64,000 nt of DNA from Intestinibaculum porci (GTDB lineage Bacteria > Bacillota_I > Bacilli_A > Erysipelotrichales > Coprobacillaceae). This document shows, piece by piece, positions 1,965 through 64,000 of the stretch. A program made the position numbers and the translations under genes. The stretch is taken from positions 1,922,001 through 1,986,000 of the forward strand of contig NZ_AP019309.1 of the NCBI RefSeq assembly GCF_003925875.1, given 5' to 3'. A model generated the notes under the pieces. That model did not search any database. It saw nothing but the letters and a program-made list of their open reading frames with translations, and was not told the origin of the DNA. Position 1 is the first letter of the stretch, and each line of letters starts with the position of its first letter.

Positions 1965-3023
1965 TTATTCAATTTTTAATCTTTCAGCACTGTGAATAGT
2001 AACGATCTGATCAATTTCATCCTCGTCCTTATAAATGAAGCGATCTGCATCCCTCAAATATCTTTCACGCGCATTAAGAAGATTTCCTTCATTATCTGTT
2101 TCAGTGGTTCCATGGGATTTTGTGTTATAATCGGTATAGATATACTCGTTGACTCTTAAATTGATATCTTCCAGACTCTTGTACTGACTCCAGTCCTCGC
2201 AGTAATAGATGGAATTCTTCAGCGTGCTAAATGATTTTTCAATTTTACCCTTGGCTGCACCGTCACGGACAGGCGCATGAATAAGCTGAATGCCAAGTCT
2301 CGCGCAAATCATCTGAAGCTGATGATTAGAATATGGTGTTCCATTATCAACAAGAAGCATGGACGGAATGCCATAGGTCTTTACGGCATTTTTAAGCACC
2401 TTCTGGAAATTAACGCCACTATCCGCGAAGAATACCTCAAAGCCAACAGGCATTCTAGAGGCATCATCGATAATCATCATCAGATAAGTCTGACGCCCGT
2501 CAATCTTACTAAGATAAGTGGTATCAGCCTGCCACATCTGATTAGCGAATTCGAACTCAAAAGCCTTTCTGTCCTTGCCGTCATGATATTCATCCTTCTT
2601 AGGGCATTTCTCATGATAGCCTTTCACAAAGCGATCAATAGTGGACTGCGATGTTAAATCATCAATCAGTTTGTTTTCAATCAGTCTTTTTCTGACAATT
2701 GTGTTAAGAATACGGGGATATTTTTCAATCTGTTCAATAATAAACCGCTGTGCATCATCACTCAGCACTCTGAAAGTACCTGCATCAGACCGCTGCCCGG
2801 GCATCAGGCCCTCAATTCCAAATCTGCGGTAAAGGGAGAGCCAGTTTTCAAAGGTTCCTTTGTGGTACGTTCGTACGGAATTAGTGACAGGGTTTCTTAA
2901 GCTCTTGCCCTCCAGCGACTTAAAATAGGCCGCATTGGAGCTGAAACTGTGAGTATTATTATAAGCCGGTGCAATATACCCAAATTTCCAGAGAGCAATC
3001 TTTTCTCTGTCTTCGTATTTCAC
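1965..3023 (-). CDS. DDE-type integrase/transposase, 3' end rewritten by IS66 copy A
   Basis: Transposase with an N-terminal helix-turn-helix region (residues 1-75) and an rve (retroviral integrase-like) core. The triad is D167 (WQADTT), D226 (LVDNGT) and E262 (GKIEKSF), giving the expected D-35-E spacing. It follows the DUF6431-like gene (3108-3899) with an 84-bp gap, and the same gene pair recurs at 58604-60234. The last 12 residues and the stop codon (from VTIHSAERL on) come from the end of the IS66 element, so the native C-terminus is lost. The catalytic core is intact; whether the protein still works is unknown. Confidence 0.88.
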   Translation of the reverse strand: MKYEDREKIALWKFGYIAPAYNNTHSFSSNAAYFKSLEGKSLRNPVTNSVRTYHKGTFENWLSLYRRFGIEGLMPGQRSDAGTFRVLSDDAQRFIIEQIEKYPRILNTIVRKRLIENKLIDDLTSQSTIDRFVKGYHEKCPKKDEYHDGKDRKAFEFEFANQMWQADTTYLSKIDGRQTYLMMIIDDASRMPVGFEVFFADSGVNFQKVLKNAVKTYGIPSMLLVDNGTPYSNHQLQMICARLGIQLIHAPVRDGAAKGKIEKSFSTLKNSIYYCEDWSQYKSLEDINLRVNEYIYTDYNTKSHGTTETDNEGNLLNARERYLRDADRFIYKDEDEIDQIVTIHSAERLKIE

Positions 3024-58603: not shown

Positions 58604-59221
58604 ATGCTACAGGAAAATAAGATTTTATTCAAGTTCTATATTCAAATTCTTAAAAATAAATCATTTAATCTTCTGGATGCTGGTATTAAAGATGTAAATA
58701 AGCTGATCTCTTTAATGGCTACTGAACCCTCATGCACCAGCGAACACAAGAGAAAACCCAGAAGAAAAAAGAAGTGCAAATGCCGTAAGCTTTCCGCAAG
58801 CTCAAAAAGATACCAAAGAAACTTAATAATGCTCGAAAATAGCAAGCAGGAACTGTATAGAATTTCAGTTCCTCTTTTGCGTTGCAAACAATGCGGATAT
58901 CATGCTGTCCTGCCTTATCTTTTTATCATACCATATGAACAATATTCCATTCAGTTTATCCTTCATGTTCTGATTGATCGAATTAAATATAAGATGAAGC
59001 TTTCTGAGCTTTTTAAAAAGTATCAGATCCCTCAGACCACATTTTACAGATGGCTAAAGCAATATAAAGCCTATTACAACATTTATATACATGTAATGGA
59101 TTCCTATGAGATGGACTTCCTAGATCGTGCATCATCTGATCTGTATGAACTTATGAGCAGAATTTATGCAGCTACATCATGTGCACTATTTGAAGATACT
59201 AACGCAAATTACTTCACCTGA
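58604..59221 (+). CDS. DUF6431-like transposon accessory protein, 205 aa
   Basis: A basic Cys-rich segment (RRKKKCKCRKL), LRCKQCGYHAVLP (CxxC and HAVLP as in the protein at 3108), then helix-turn-helix LSELFKKYQIPQTTFYRWLKQY. The N-terminal CxxC knuckle is reduced. Shares the transcript with the transposase 134 bp downstream. Confidence 0.68.
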   Translation: MLQENKILFKFYIQILKNKSFNLLDAGIKDVNKLISLMATEPSCTSEHKRKPRRKKKCKCRKLSASSKRYQRNLIMLENSKQELYRISVPLLRCKQCGYHAVLPYLFIIPYEQYSIQFILHVLIDRIKYKMKLSELFKKYQIPQTTFYRWLKQYKAYYNIYIHVMDSYEMDFLDRASSDLYELMSRIYAATSCALFEDTNANYFT

Positions 59222-59355: not shown

Positions 59356-60234
59356 TTGAGCGAAACAGATAAACCAAGAGGCATTTCTGCCTTGCAAGTG
59401 AGCAATGATAGTGATGTCTATCTGAGAAACAAAAGGATTGCAGAGGTTAAGTATGCCCTTATTGCGCCTGTAATCACAGAAACATTAAACGGTGAAAACC
59501 ATTCGGAATATTATAAGCGCATTGAAAATCATGAGGTTGTATTTCCTGACGGAAGCGTTCATAAATTTAAGGCCGAAACTTATAAATACTGGGCATTTCT
59601 TTACAGAAAACATGGCATAGAAGGACTTATGCCAAAGCAAAGAAGTGACTTTGGAAAAACAAGAAGACTTAATAATGAAGCTAAGCTTTTTATTACTGAC
59701 CAGATTGTAAAGCATCCTAAGATTACTGGACAGCTGATCTACGATCGAATGATAGAGGCAGGCATTATGTCTGAAGGCGATGTGTCTGTTGATACAGTTC
59801 AGCGATATATCAAAAAGAATGGCATTCGTGAAGATTTAAATCCGGCTAAGACGGAAAGAAGAGCCTGGGAATATGAACATGCCTGTGATGGTTATGAAGC
59901 TGATACAGCCTATACTCTTTATGTCAAAGATGAGAACGGCAAGGTGCGGAGAACCTATCTGATAGCGATTATCGATGATGCCTCCCGATTAATAGTTGGT
60001 GCTGAATTTTTCTTTAATGATAACGCCGTCAATTTTCACAAAGTGTGGAAATTAGCTGTTAAGCGCTACGGGAGAAGCAAGGTAATGATACTTGATAATG
60101 GATCAAGCTACAAGAACGCGGCGACAAAGTCTATTAGCGCACGTTTGGGAACGAAGCTTGTTTACTGCAAGCCATACACTCCCCAAGGGAAAGCGAAAAT
60201 CTTATGTGGAACTTTTAATTATGTGGAAGTTTAG
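59356..60234 (+). pseudogene. rve-type DDE transposase, truncated before its catalytic Glu
   Basis: TTG start with GAAGGAGG upstream. Catalytic Asp183 (YEADTAYT) and Asp247 (ILDNGSS) are present. The third residue, Glu, is expected at position 283, 35 residues on, but codon 283 is the first codon of inserted DNA and encodes Leu. The frame then runs 10 residues in foreign sequence to a stop. Inactive. Related to 1965-3023. Confidence 0.85.
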
Positions 60235-60363
60235 TGCTATGCCTGTATAGCACTGAATAATCGCTTTTTTTCTTCTGCATAATTAATAATCAGTTCATAC
60301 TTATATGTTATTTAGGGACTAGATAATAATTTAAACTAAATAATATGAAAGGAGCTTTAACAC

Positions 60364-60554
60364 ATGAGCGATGACTATACACTCAAATCATAAATGAAAT
60401 CAAACAAATTATAATAACATATTCTGCAAGCAGTCCTGGGCGTGTCAAGAAATATATAAGAGCAGCTGATCATATAATTATTTTCATTAATTCTGGAGGA
60501 TCTCTGGATAAAGAAGGAGTAAATTCAATTCTCAAGTGCATTTCCTCTAATGAT
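60364..60554 (+). other. Frame-shifted N-terminal extension of the first recombinase
   Basis: ATG at 60364 after GAAAGGAGC starts MSDDYTLKS and stops at 60391-60393. A -1 shift after codon 8 reads IINEIKQIIITYSASS and runs openly into the recombinase frame. No canonical slippery heptamer is seen, so a one-base deletion or sequence error is more likely than programmed frameshifting. Confidence 0.55.
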
Positions 60555-62273
60555 GTGATTGACTGCATCAAAAGAATCATGGGGTTCTTCTACGCATATC
60601 AGGAATACGGCTTTATTTTTCCAACCGTCATGCGTAATATTTTACAGTTTTATGAGGATCATATAACTGATCATGACGTCATGATTGTTGATGAATATTT
60701 TGAACAAAAAAATTTAACTGAACCAAGGTATAAGACTACTAAGACTAGGATTCTTGAGATGCTGTATGTTCTCAAGAATAAGTCCTGCAAATCTCTTGCC
60801 AATCTTGATTACTATGATTTTTACGATTACTATAATATGATATTTGAAATCCACAATAATACATCAGACCCTTATGACTATTTTCGGACAATCAGATTGT
60901 TTCTTGAGTACTGTGAATGCAATAATATTTTAGCTATAAAACCTTCTGTTATTTTTGATTCATATGGTCACTTATATTTCGAATTCCTTTTGAAGTTTAT
61001 GAACACTAATACAATACCAAATTTCAGTCCGGATGAAGCACTTGACCCTCAGGATTATATTTCATCAGATAAAATCAAGAAACTTGCTTTGCTCTATAAA
61101 TCAAACGGTTATAAAGACCATTCGCACAAATATGAATATATTTATAAATCAATCACAAGGTTCTTAGTGTTCTGTGACATGAATGACCTGTCATTTACTA
61201 AAGACGCTGCATATTACTGGGCCTACACGATCATTAGAGAATATATGTATAGCTACTCAGGTGTTGTTTATGGACTTTTATCCAAATACATTGATCTTAT
61301 AAAAACAGGAAATGTTAGTTTCTCATCCCGGAAATTCATCAGGAAAAAGGCACTTGAATCATTACCTGTATGGGCAAAAGAATATGCGGAAAGCTTTATC
61401 AGATACAGAAAACGGCTTGGATATGCAGAAAATACTATTAATATGGATCGTCGCTGTATTATAAGGCTTATTGAACATGCAGTATCATATGGGATATCAT
61501 CCTATGATCAAATGGATGACTCATTTCTGAAATATTTTAGCGAGAATGATCACCATCAGACTGGAGAAGGAAAAAATGCTTATCTATGCAGAACAAGAAC
61601 TTTTTTCCGGTATTTAAGCGACACATTTTCATTCAAGCCTCTTTATGCGTCTGTATTCTTAAGAAACACAAGGACGGTTAAATCTCAGCCAAAGGTGCTT
61701 GATGAAGCCTTTATAAGAGCGATGGATTCCTACCAGGAAAAGCATCATGAAAGCAAGGACCTCAGAGACTATGCAATGTACCTTATTGCATTCAGAACAG
61801 GACTTAGAATTACGGACATAGTTAATTTAAAATTCAGTTCCGTATCACTTAAGGATATGACCATTTCGGTCATGCAGAAAAAAACAAAGAGAGAGATTAT
61901 TACACATTTGCCTGTTGAGGTGGCTAATGCGATTTACAGATACGTAAAGATGGGACGTCCCAAATCAGATTCAGAGTATATATTTTTGTCATGTTCAGCC
62001 CCTCACAATCCATTAACCAGATCAGTAGCCGTTGGAATACTAAGAAGAATTTCCAAAAATATTGGAATGAAAAGTCCAAACGGATTCCACGTTATCAGAA
62101 AGACATTCGCTACGGATCGAATCAAGAGTGGCGTTGGTTTAAATAATACTGCGGCGGTGCTTGGGCATTCAGATACTGAGAACGTCAAAAAATATGTATC
62201 ACTTGACGAAAAGAATATGAAAAAATGCCCCCTTTCGCTTGATGGCATAGAAATGGAGGAAATAATGAAATGA
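60555..62273 (+). CDS. Tyrosine recombinase, first of trio, 572 aa from GTG
   Basis: SAM-like core-binding domain then catalytic domain: Arg in RTGLRITDIVNL, H-x-x-R in HVIRKTFATD, His in VLGHSDTENV, nucleophile Tyr in KKYVSLD. No RBS precedes the GTG. The same frame continues 60 codons upstream, and an ATG with GAAAGGAG at 60364 leads into it if one base is shifted near 60389, giving about 637 residues. The annotated start is therefore a stand-in. Stop overlaps the next start by 4 nt. Confidence 0.85.
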   Translation: MIDCIKRIMGFFYAYQEYGFIFPTVMRNILQFYEDHITDHDVMIVDEYFEQKNLTEPRYKTTKTRILEMLYVLKNKSCKSLANLDYYDFYDYYNMIFEIHNNTSDPYDYFRTIRLFLEYCECNNILAIKPSVIFDSYGHLYFEFLLKFMNTNTIPNFSPDEALDPQDYISSDKIKKLALLYKSNGYKDHSHKYEYIYKSITRFLVFCDMNDLSFTKDAAYYWAYTIIREYMYSYSGVVYGLLSKYIDLIKTGNVSFSSRKFIRKKALESLPVWAKEYAESFIRYRKRLGYAENTINMDRRCIIRLIEHAVSYGISSYDQMDDSFLKYFSENDHHQTGEGKNAYLCRTRTFFRYLSDTFSFKPLYASVFLRNTRTVKSQPKVLDEAFIRAMDSYQEKHHESKDLRDYAMYLIAFRTGLRITDIVNLKFSSVSLKDMTISVMQKKTKREIITHLPVEVANAIYRYVKMGRPKSDSEYIFLSCSAPHNPLTRSVAVGILRRISKNIGMKSPNGFHVIRKTFATDRIKSGVGLNNTAAVLGHSDTENVKKYVSLDEKNMKKCPLSLDGIEMEEIMK

Positions 62274-63211
62274 AAGAGACATTAAGCATTTATGGAGCAT
62301 ACATCAGTGAGTACATCAGCTACCGGATAAGCAACGGATTTTCAGCCTCAACTTTTGATAAGCTTTACATGTTTGACAGATTTCTTGCGGAAAAAAATTA
62401 TAATCAAAAGATTCTGACTAAAGAAATAATAGATGAGTGGGATAAAAGAAGAGAAACGGAATCAAACGTGACCCAGCTTAAAAGAATATCTACAGTGCGC
62501 ATCTTTTGCATCTATTTGAATTCGATTGGTGTCCAGGCACATGTATCCAGAACCTCGATAAAAGTAGTTAAGACTGTTCCTTTTGTGTTTACCCGAAAAG
62601 AAATCATTAATCTTTTTAAAGAACTGGACAAGTATTTCCGTACGAAATCACATCATTACAGATACATGATGCCAGTTTTGTTTCGGCTTATGTATACGAC
62701 TGGAATGAGAGTCGGCGAAGCAGTAAGTCTTAGGCATGAACATATTGATTTAAAGAGGAATGTAATAGTTGTAGAAAATGGAAAAAACAAGCTTACCCGT
62801 CTTGTTTACATGAGCGATGATGTCAGTTCAATGATGAGTGATTACATGAAAAAAATCTTTAATGAAAAGTCCCTCTCTCAATGGCTTTTCCCAAGCACAA
62901 AGGCTGATAAGCATATCGTGAGCTCAACTGTCGCTGATTACTTCAGCAGAGTTATCCGTAAAATGGGTTACACGAACCCTGACTATCATCCTGTGCCGCA
63001 TTCCTTGCGTCATTCATATTGTGTACATGTGATTGACGGATGGATCAAAAACGGCGAAAACCTCAATGAACTAATGCCATATCTTGAAAAGCAAATGGGC
63101 CACAAGAACCATAAGTCCACATGGTACTATTATCATATGGTTTATGACAGCTATGAGTGTGTTGTCACGAAGACACGCGATATCTATCCGGAGGTGAGCG
63201 ATGATGGCTAA
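62270..63211 (+). CDS. Tyrosine recombinase, second of trio, 313 aa
   Basis: Arg in TTGMRVGEAVSL, H-x-x-R in HSLRHSYCVH, His in MGHKNHKST, Tyr in WYYYHM. All catalytic residues present. Length fits the middle RIT recombinase. Overlaps both neighbours, so the three are translated together. Confidence 0.92.
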   Translation: MKETLSIYGAYISEYISYRISNGFSASTFDKLYMFDRFLAEKNYNQKILTKEIIDEWDKRRETESNVTQLKRISTVRIFCIYLNSIGVQAHVSRTSIKVVKTVPFVFTRKEIINLFKELDKYFRTKSHHYRYMMPVLFRLMYTTGMRVGEAVSLRHEHIDLKRNVIVVENGKNKLTRLVYMSDDVSSMMSDYMKKIFNEKSLSQWLFPSTKADKHIVSSTVADYFSRVIRKMGYTNPDYHPVPHSLRHSYCVHVIDGWIKNGENLNELMPYLEKQMGHKNHKSTWYYYHMVYDSYECVVTKTRDIYPEVSDDG

Positions 63212-64000
63212 GCCTTCTCTTTCTGAACTGTTTTTTGCATATGCTACGGATTTTTTGACCGCATATCTGACAGAAAAGCTCTCAAGAAGCAGTAAGACTG
63301 CTGAAAGCTACCGTGATGCCCTAACCATCTTTCGAAGATACATCAACAGTGAATTACAAATTAGTCTTCTTAAATTCAAAACAGAAGATATAACTGTTGA
63401 TCTTATTCTTGACTATAGAGATTATCTCCAAAAAAAATATGCAATTACTACGGTTAACCAGCGCATCGCTGCAATTAAGACTTATCTCAAATACATTGCT
63501 GAATGTGATACAAAATACGTGAGCATAAGCATAAAAATAGATCGCATACCATCTCTGAAAGCACCGGTTAGAATCAGACCGGTCCTTGATGATGATCTTA
63601 TCAGGCGGATTATTGACGAAGCATCAAAGACAAGAAAGTCATCAAGAAATGTAATGATCATCATTCTTTTATATGATACTGCAATGAGGATTTCTGAGCT
63701 CACAAACCTGAAAATGTGCGATTTGTTTTTAAGCAATGAAGATCTTCCATATATTCATGTTCGCGGAAAGGGAGATAAGGAAAGAATTATTGTTTTGAGT
63801 GAGAGAGCAGCACAGTATCTTAATAAGTACATTAGAAAATATCATTCCAGAGGTGAGTGTGAATACCTGTTTTATACCTGTATCAAAGGAAATAATGATA
63901 AGATTTCAAATTCAACAGTTGAAAAAATGCTCGATGAAATCACTGCCCGACTGAAGGCTCAAAGAATAACTGATCTAACTTCCATACATCCTCATATGTT
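63201..64000 (+). CDS. Tyrosine recombinase, third of trio, partial (runs off window)
   Basis: Starts at 63201 (ATG, GGAGGTGAG upstream), 11 nt before the stop of the second recombinase. 266 residues are visible: N-terminal SAM-like domain, then Arg in DTAMRISELTNL and GKGDKERIIVL. The frame is open to the edge and breaks at IHPHM, just before the expected H-x-x-R motif. Confidence 0.9.
   Translation, partial: MMAKPSLSELFFAYATDFLTAYLTEKLSRSSKTAESYRDALTIFRRYINSELQISLLKFKTEDITVDLILDYRDYLQKKYAITTVNQRIAAIKTYLKYIAECDTKYVSISIKIDRIPSLKAPVRIRPVLDDDLIRRIIDEASKTRKSSRNVMIIILLYDTAMRISELTNLKMCDLFLSNEDLPYIHVRGKGDKERIIVLSERAAQYLNKYIRKYHSRGECEYLFYTCIKGNNDKISNSTVEKMLDEITARLKAQRITDLTSIHPHM

Follow-up and report, generated by a model that had tools for sequence, protein, structure and literature searches.

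RITs have been known since about 2009. They have been described as overlapping ritA-ritB-ritC tyrosine recombinase genes, with active-site residues in all three, in elements of about 3.5 kb that end in terminal inverted repeats (PMC3414803, PMC2864759), and RitA has been found to contain two core-binding domains and RitC an extra helix (PMC8138268). Earlier insertions were recorded in an IS66 tnpA, a Tn6049-type transposase and radC; the ends appeared to vary and to offer no convincing binding sites beyond one inverted repeat or palindrome, mobility was regarded as unproven, and the need for three enzymes was considered hard to explain (PMC3414803, PMC2864759).

The window analysed here is a stretch of 64,000 nucleotides (C1:1922001-1986000 of a 3.21-Mb genome in one contig), and such an element crosses its right-hand end. 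It shares with the described RITs the ordered trio, the active-site residues and the terminal inverted repeats. The element and its host gene comprise the following features, with C1 coordinates given for those that lie beyond the window:

59356..60201, forward strand: N-terminal 282 codons of the host DDE transposase, IS481-like (rve and Mu-transpos_C once joined)
60196..60201, no strand: left target hexamer AAAATC (codons K-I), a direct repeat of the right hexamer
60202..60283, forward strand: left terminal inverted repeat, 82 bp, ~95% identical to the right copy, with a doubled TTATGTGGAA, a hairpin and an inverted arm copy
60375..62273, forward strand: ritA as a long frame without an ATG (GTG at 60555), 632 aa
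62270..63211, forward strand: ritB, 313 aa, with an ATGA overlap with ritA
63201..64000 and on to 64214 (C1:1986214), forward strand: ritC, 337 aa, running past the window end
C1:1986272-1986353: right inverted repeat
C1:1986354-1986359: inner hexamer AATTTT, the reverse complement of AAAATT
C1:1986360-1986379: 20-bp module, the near-palindrome TTATGTGGAAGTCTACATAA
C1:1986380-1986385: right target hexamer AAAATC, followed by the Glu codon
C1:1986386-1986874: C-terminal part of the host transposase, beginning with the catalytic Glu codon GAA

The first-pass annotation had called three overlapping, RIT-like recombinases, and this identification stands: the genes share one orientation, overlap by 4 nt (ritA/ritB) and 11 nt (ritB/ritC), and all match PF00589 (E 1e-16 to 1e-28). 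Using RitA, RitB and RitC profiles built from seven trios of this genome to classify genes, we found the A-B-C order again in RIT loci of relatives, plasmids and virome scaffolds; the family relatives include [Clostridium] spiroforme, and contigs G017:C88 and JACJKV010000031 carry the same RIT. Across about 55 trios, the R, K, H, R, H and Y active-site columns are conserved in RitA, RitB and RitC, except for the HxxR motif of RitB, whose first His falls below our 85% reporting line, and the catalytic Tyr is present in 55/56, 55/55 and 52/55 proteins of the three subfamilies. The closest relatives start ritA with a normal ATG behind a Shine-Dalgarno sequence; the Shine-Dalgarno-preceded ATG of the window copy, at 60365, opens a different frame that stops after 9 codons. 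The window ritA is probably damaged, its frame broken near the start, and this copy may therefore be immobile. RitA is long throughout the RIT clade of the window (L044, L045, L087, L004; about 630-645 aa vs. about 415 aa; L numbers denote loci), which makes the window element somewhat longer than the typical ~3.5 kb.

The left boundary had been placed at codon 283 of a DDE transposase, where the catalytic Glu should stand, and the insertion had been taken to have killed the host transposon. Codon 283 is indeed the first codon at 60202, where the foreign end starts; codons 1-282 lie left of the element, and the remainder, from the Glu codon onwards, lies to its right. The missing C-terminus had been expected on the far side of the trio, and it is found there: the transposase frame picks up again 386 bp beyond the window as IERFFLRVRQQW..., its first codons at C1:1986386 being GAA AGG TTC (E-R-F), and the two parts join through the AAAATC repeat. 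The rejoined transposase forms one open frame of 443 aa with Pfam matches to rve, rve_3 and Mu-transpos_C, of which rve_3 spans the junction. The Glu column is invariant in 18/18 aligned sequences (17 homologues, some interrupted by other RITs, plus the transposase of the window), and homologues in relatives run uninterrupted across the insertion site. We call the host only ‘IS481-like’ because its truncated N-terminal part scores 99.9 against the NCBIfam IS481 equivalog (cut-off 224) and the rejoined protein was given a Pfam scan only.

The host transposon is broken twice, since its transposase is split by the RIT and its neighbouring AAA ATPase gene (AAA_22) by a 519-aa IS transposase gene. 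The latter (L004 9256-11027; C1:1987255-1989026), which by eye we take to be IS1634-like, has near-identical copies at C1:846 kb and 263 kb. Just upstream of the host transposase lies a gene for a 205-aa DUF6431 protein (window 58604-59221), possibly the third gene of the host transposon. Two homologues of the host transposase were also seen, one truncated and diverged (about 37%; window 2046-3017, C1:1924046-1925017) and one full-length (33%; C1:47682).

The RIT itself measures 4,152 bp (window 60202 to C1:1986353). When we searched the genome with its left end, an inverted match was returned at C1:1986272-1986359 (95% over 88 bp including the hexamers), which supplies the other end that had been expected to the right of the trio. 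The doubled left-end sequence and the hairpin that had been singled out in the first-pass annotation are both present, as direct copies at 60202 and 60219 and as GTGCTAT..ATAGCAC; they form part of the 82-bp inverted repeat and are likely, though still putative, recombinase sites. Read from left to right, the locus thus consists of target hexamer, inverted repeat, ritABC, inverted repeat, inner hexamer, 20-bp palindrome and target hexamer, and we infer that the crossover spacer is the 6-bp AAAATC (Lys-Ile) immediately before the Glu codon. There is no fourth gene between the element ends, so the four-gene core of GInt/SE elements is absent, and no cargo was seen in the window RIT besides the three recombinase genes and the short ends.

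A RitB search of the genome revealed one trio type in an ISL3 transposase, in three identical copies, and a second type in an IS66 transposase, also in three copies. Other trios occur once each: in an IS1182-type transposase, in an IS30-type transposase, in a group II intron and in an AT-rich stretch where no interrupted gene was seen. Those RITs of this genome that have both ends intact carry an extra 26 bp (hexamer plus 20-bp palindromic module) at the right or the left end, and a 6-bp direct repeat encloses element and module together; in ISL3 this target hexamer, GATGAG, codes for the catalytic Asp and the Glu that follows it. In the two families whose modules we searched for, there is one module per element, adjoining it, and none elsewhere in the genome. 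On these comparisons, the 20-bp module is part of the element and is found at either element end.

The ISL3-targeting copies are 100% identical over 4,122 bp, one of the three being reversed relative to its host, and their flanks differ by 1-2% (L028 vs. L030), so that dozens of differences would be expected in the element at equal rates; likewise, no difference is seen over 3,346 bp between two of the three IS66-targeting copies, whose flanks are 98.2-98.9% identical. Identical elements in differing flanks imply that the RIT entered IS copies that had already diverged, at the same codon and in either orientation, gene conversion confined to the element being a less simple alternative. Each of the ISL3 copies found in the genome (3/3) is occupied, and G026 and G033 hold related ISL3 elements (65-68% identity) whose alignment passes through the junction without interruption; we found no strain pair with and without an insertion. 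It could be argued that each RIT inserted only once and then hitchhiked, the host transposon copying the composite, such that its constant position reflects descent instead of targeting. Multi-copy IS::RIT composites with several-kb shared flanks do exist in this genome, and a trans-acting transposase could move them; however, copying of a composite accounts neither for elements that are identical where their flanks are not, nor for opposite orientations at one codon.

Two further loci of this genome have a more complex structure. At L032 (4193-13632; C1:1225192-1234631) the insertions are nested, a RIT-bearing IS66 element sitting in the ritC end of another RIT, and L037 is the matching site without this IS66 insertion. 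At L034 (3049-8460; C1:477048-482459) luxS looks truncated: a group II intron on the opposite strand seems to have split it, and this intron itself contains a RIT just after domain V.

We extended the comparison to loci from the same order and class and to plasmids of alpha-, beta- and gamma-proteobacteria, actinobacteria, Bacillota and Bacteroidota, part of which were gathered after the pattern had been seen in earlier loci. A script that scores hexamers, inverted ends and the palindromic module gave most RIT loci with both flanks a score of 28-36.5, vs. a mean best score of 24.3 and a maximum of 27.5 in shuffled DNA (n=120) and a maximum of 28 in non-RIT intervals (n=20). The same end architecture recurs in RITs of four phyla. 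Seen in the window copy alone, the 20-bp module resembles a stray inverted end, and one might regard it as the remnant of a second, nearly deleted element or as a feature of the host gene. We consider this barely credible, since the module occupies the same place in the RITs of all four phyla, does not occur away from an element in the families searched in this genome, and is missing from intact host homologues. Moreover, its arms match the element arms at 7.8/10 positions, whereas host arms match them at only 2.6/10 (chance 2.5), from which it also follows that recognition of the host must use something else than the element’s own arm sequence.

In total, 37 RITs were located within the reading frame of a host gene, and about one third of the fetched loci remained unplaced owing to short contigs, low scores or rearranged flanks (including L057, L070, L072, L076, L077, L086, L131, L133, L138, L139, L141-L143, L147, L148, L150 and L151). 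Most of the interrupted genes encode transposases, IstA/IstB, reverse transcriptases, integrases or ArdC-type proteins, and the break point lies at, or a few codons from, a catalytic or otherwise conserved motif. Beyond these placements, another four RITs adjoin group II intron domain V. The catalytic residues below follow the usual assignments for these families:

Catalytic Glu of IS481-like or IS66 transposases: window, L044, L045, L087
A few codons from the catalytic Glu of IS481-like or IS66 transposases: L083, L121-L123, L145
Asp of ISL3: L028, L030
Second Asp of IS3: L130, L132, L152
Second Asp of IstA: L080, L153
First Asp of IstA: L144
Walker A Gly-Lys of IstB or AAA_14: L061, L065, L088
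PQ/GG or LPI/GN motif of reverse transcriptases: L053, L055, L069, L075, L134
Catalytic-Tyr motif of an integrase annotated on pHG1: L078 (C-terminal fragment without a Pfam match)
HExxH of zincins: L081, L082
PD-(D/E)XK Asp of YhcG: L079
DPFxGSG of a methylase: L084
Just 3' of group II intron domain V: L034, L064, L066
Two group II intron domain V halves, inverted: L067
Conserved site whose catalytic role is not known: L032, L036, L068, L071, L090, L146

Pfam matches span most of the rejoined host junctions, and solved group II reverse transcriptases align across the reverse-transcriptase junction. A few placements count against a strict rule: those in IS200 (DGYF/VATVG), IS1182, IS66 TnpB, L073 and L089 are off any known catalytic residue, and two hosts are not obviously genes of mobile elements (the AAA_14 gene at L065 and a helicase gene at L085). 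Because some sites have no known catalytic role, the targets are most safely described as codons of conserved motifs, which for the most part are catalytic and belong to genes of mobile elements. Whether catalysis as such matters can be asked, as RITs may prefer any conserved and common DNA, of which catalytic codons are merely the best conserved. We regard this possibility as evenly poised: it is favoured by several targets that are conserved without being catalytic (IS66 TnpB at DLRK, IS1182 at HMK and IS200 at DGYF) and by the four RITs beside group II intron domain V, which is an RNA, but most placements, on our knowledge of the motifs, lie within four codons (<=4) of a catalytic or nucleotide-binding residue, and the proposal would in any case refine motif targeting and hardly contradict it. 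The conservation percentile of the junction window was computed for host proteins (nine in all) and fell between the 79th and 94th in seven and at the 50th in L080 (that of L028, with three sequences, was not computable); given this outcome, the argument for motif targeting rests mainly on the placement list, the hexamer footprint and the tree.

When reverse-complemented, the inner hexamer equals the target hexamer or is a variant of it. The two differ in 18 coding cases, and in 13/18 the difference is synonymous in the host frame, vs. 2.6 expected for equal numbers of base changes (P = 1.6e-9; 10/15 and P = 7e-7 in an earlier subset without sister copies). Synonymy is no component of the end-finder score, and although that score rewards hexamer agreement and so biases the frequency of agreement upward, this bias opposes the test of synonymous differences. 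In the window, target AAAATC and inner AAAATT both encode Lys-Ile; CTTGAC vs. TTAGAC (L044) and CTTGAC vs. TTGGAT (L045) all encode Leu-Asp; and at L130, His-Ser-Asp is coded in three different ways. We reasoned that, as the host gene is dead once a RIT has inserted, later drift would ignore codons, and that the inner hexamer must therefore derive from a different, functional gene that shares the motif. We accordingly read it as the footprint of the previous landing, and the combinations of left, inner and right hexamers, as read, fit a 6-bp heteroduplex resolved by replication or repair. That inner hexamers carry the synonymous codons of another homologue also speaks against copying of a composite after a single insertion.

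In 22 of the 37 placements the module adjoins the RitC end and in the other 15 the RitA end; both trio orientations occur, yet the side of the module is constant for a given target motif (16/16 comparisons, judged by reading): the Glu-Arg side, the Gln side of PQGG, the Thr/Ser side of the P-loop and the domain V side. The RitB tree puts the window RIT in a clade of 4 (100/99) that targets the E-R codons of both IS481-like and IS66 transposases, and the insertions at the second Asp of IS3 and IS30 form one clade (100/96); the target labels require 23 changes vs. 31.6 when shuffled (0/200 as low). On this tree, RIT clades follow the motif, not the host gene family. With a single RIT clade at the corresponding motif of non-homologous host families, we find hitchhiking after a single insertion very improbable. 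We hold it to be very likely that the RIT is a mobile element whose integration site is the DNA that codes for a conserved protein motif, which for the window copy is the catalytic Glu-Arg of a DDE transposase.

Both orientations at one target would also be produced by a local DNA invertase, if the trio had inserted once and flipped between an outer and an inner site, thereby switching the host gene; the mutual inversion of outer and inner hexamers has precisely the geometry of inversion sites. Four RITs (L035, 1440-8000; L048; L049; L067) lie between same-side halves of homologous targets, inverted relative to each other, an arrangement expected from recombination between target copies. L048, L049 and L067 have a module at each end and L035 has none, and all four are probable products of RIT-driven inversion between two target copies. 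Inversion alone, however, explains neither identical elements in diverged targets nor synonymous inner hexamers, and the host gene is broken in either orientation. A dedicated invertase is thus unlikely, and inversion could be a side reaction of a mobile element.

The ends, target repeat, module, footprints, orientation freedom with fixed target polarity and independent insertions, each established by comparing sequences, together suggest how RITs may move; mobility itself is supported indirectly, by identical copies in diverged hosts and by synonymous footprints. Recombination between the two outer hexamers would circularise the element, yielding a joint of the form end-x6-[module]-y6-end with two symmetric core sites, either of which could recombine with a target across the 6-bp spacer. 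Since either core site would be usable, the trio could enter in either orientation, and one hexamer of the previous site would remain as the inner hexamer, which would encode the amino acids of the new target because it was left from an earlier site with the same motif. Inversion or one-ended recombination (L035, L048, L049 and L067) would be side reactions, and the three arm types (element end, module and host) may provide separate places for the three recombinases. No circle or joint was observed: the virome scaffolds (L048-L052; 4.3-5.8 kb), four with a complete trio and one with ritB/ritC only, are linear with flanks, and the RITs of L048 and L049 carry a module at each end and lie between halves of homologous genes that are inverted to each other. 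A target made of codons whose change would kill the host gene would be common among mobile elements and hard to escape, at the price of inactivating the host element. We think it likely, if somewhat less so than the integration rule itself, that RITs as a class are homing hyperparasites of mobile elements, each clade recognising the DNA of one conserved catalytic motif across unrelated gene families and using a 6-bp spacer and a circular joint with two symmetric sites around the 20-bp palindromic module, with the hexamer of the previous host retained as a readable jump history.

If this is true, the history of RIT jumps can be read from inner hexamers. Occupation of 3/3 ISL3 copies, at an active-site target that is hard to mutate away, suggests a natural brake on insertion sequences, and if the recombinases of each clade read a different motif, RITs would be a source of tyrosine recombinases with diverse natural targets.

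Tn554 and Tn916-type elements resemble RITs in using tyrosine recombinases and a short spacer and in moving spacer sequence between sites; they differ in gene content, and they use single defined genes or AT-rich targets, unlike the many catalytic motifs used by RITs. Inteins and homing introns likewise occupy the codons of active-site motifs, a conserved target being their presumed benefit, but they splice out and leave a working host gene, whereas a RIT breaks it. Strand-biased circularizing elements (SE) and GInts, as far as the accessible parts of their descriptions go, also employ several recombinases and carry a 6-bp piece from beside the donor end to the new site; unlike RITs, they have a fourth gene beside the recombinases (intA, CDS2, intB, CDS4 or ginABCD), form cargo-carrying islands, and show no 20-bp palindromic module in those parts (PMC10214605, PMC5385486). 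In the portions of the RIT literature that our search covered, we did not find the 6-bp/20-bp end architecture, motif-level targeting, synonymous footprint or fixed polarity. The RIT family itself is known; what the sequence comparisons appear to add are its exact ends, a target rule, a footprint of past jumps and a predicted circular joint.
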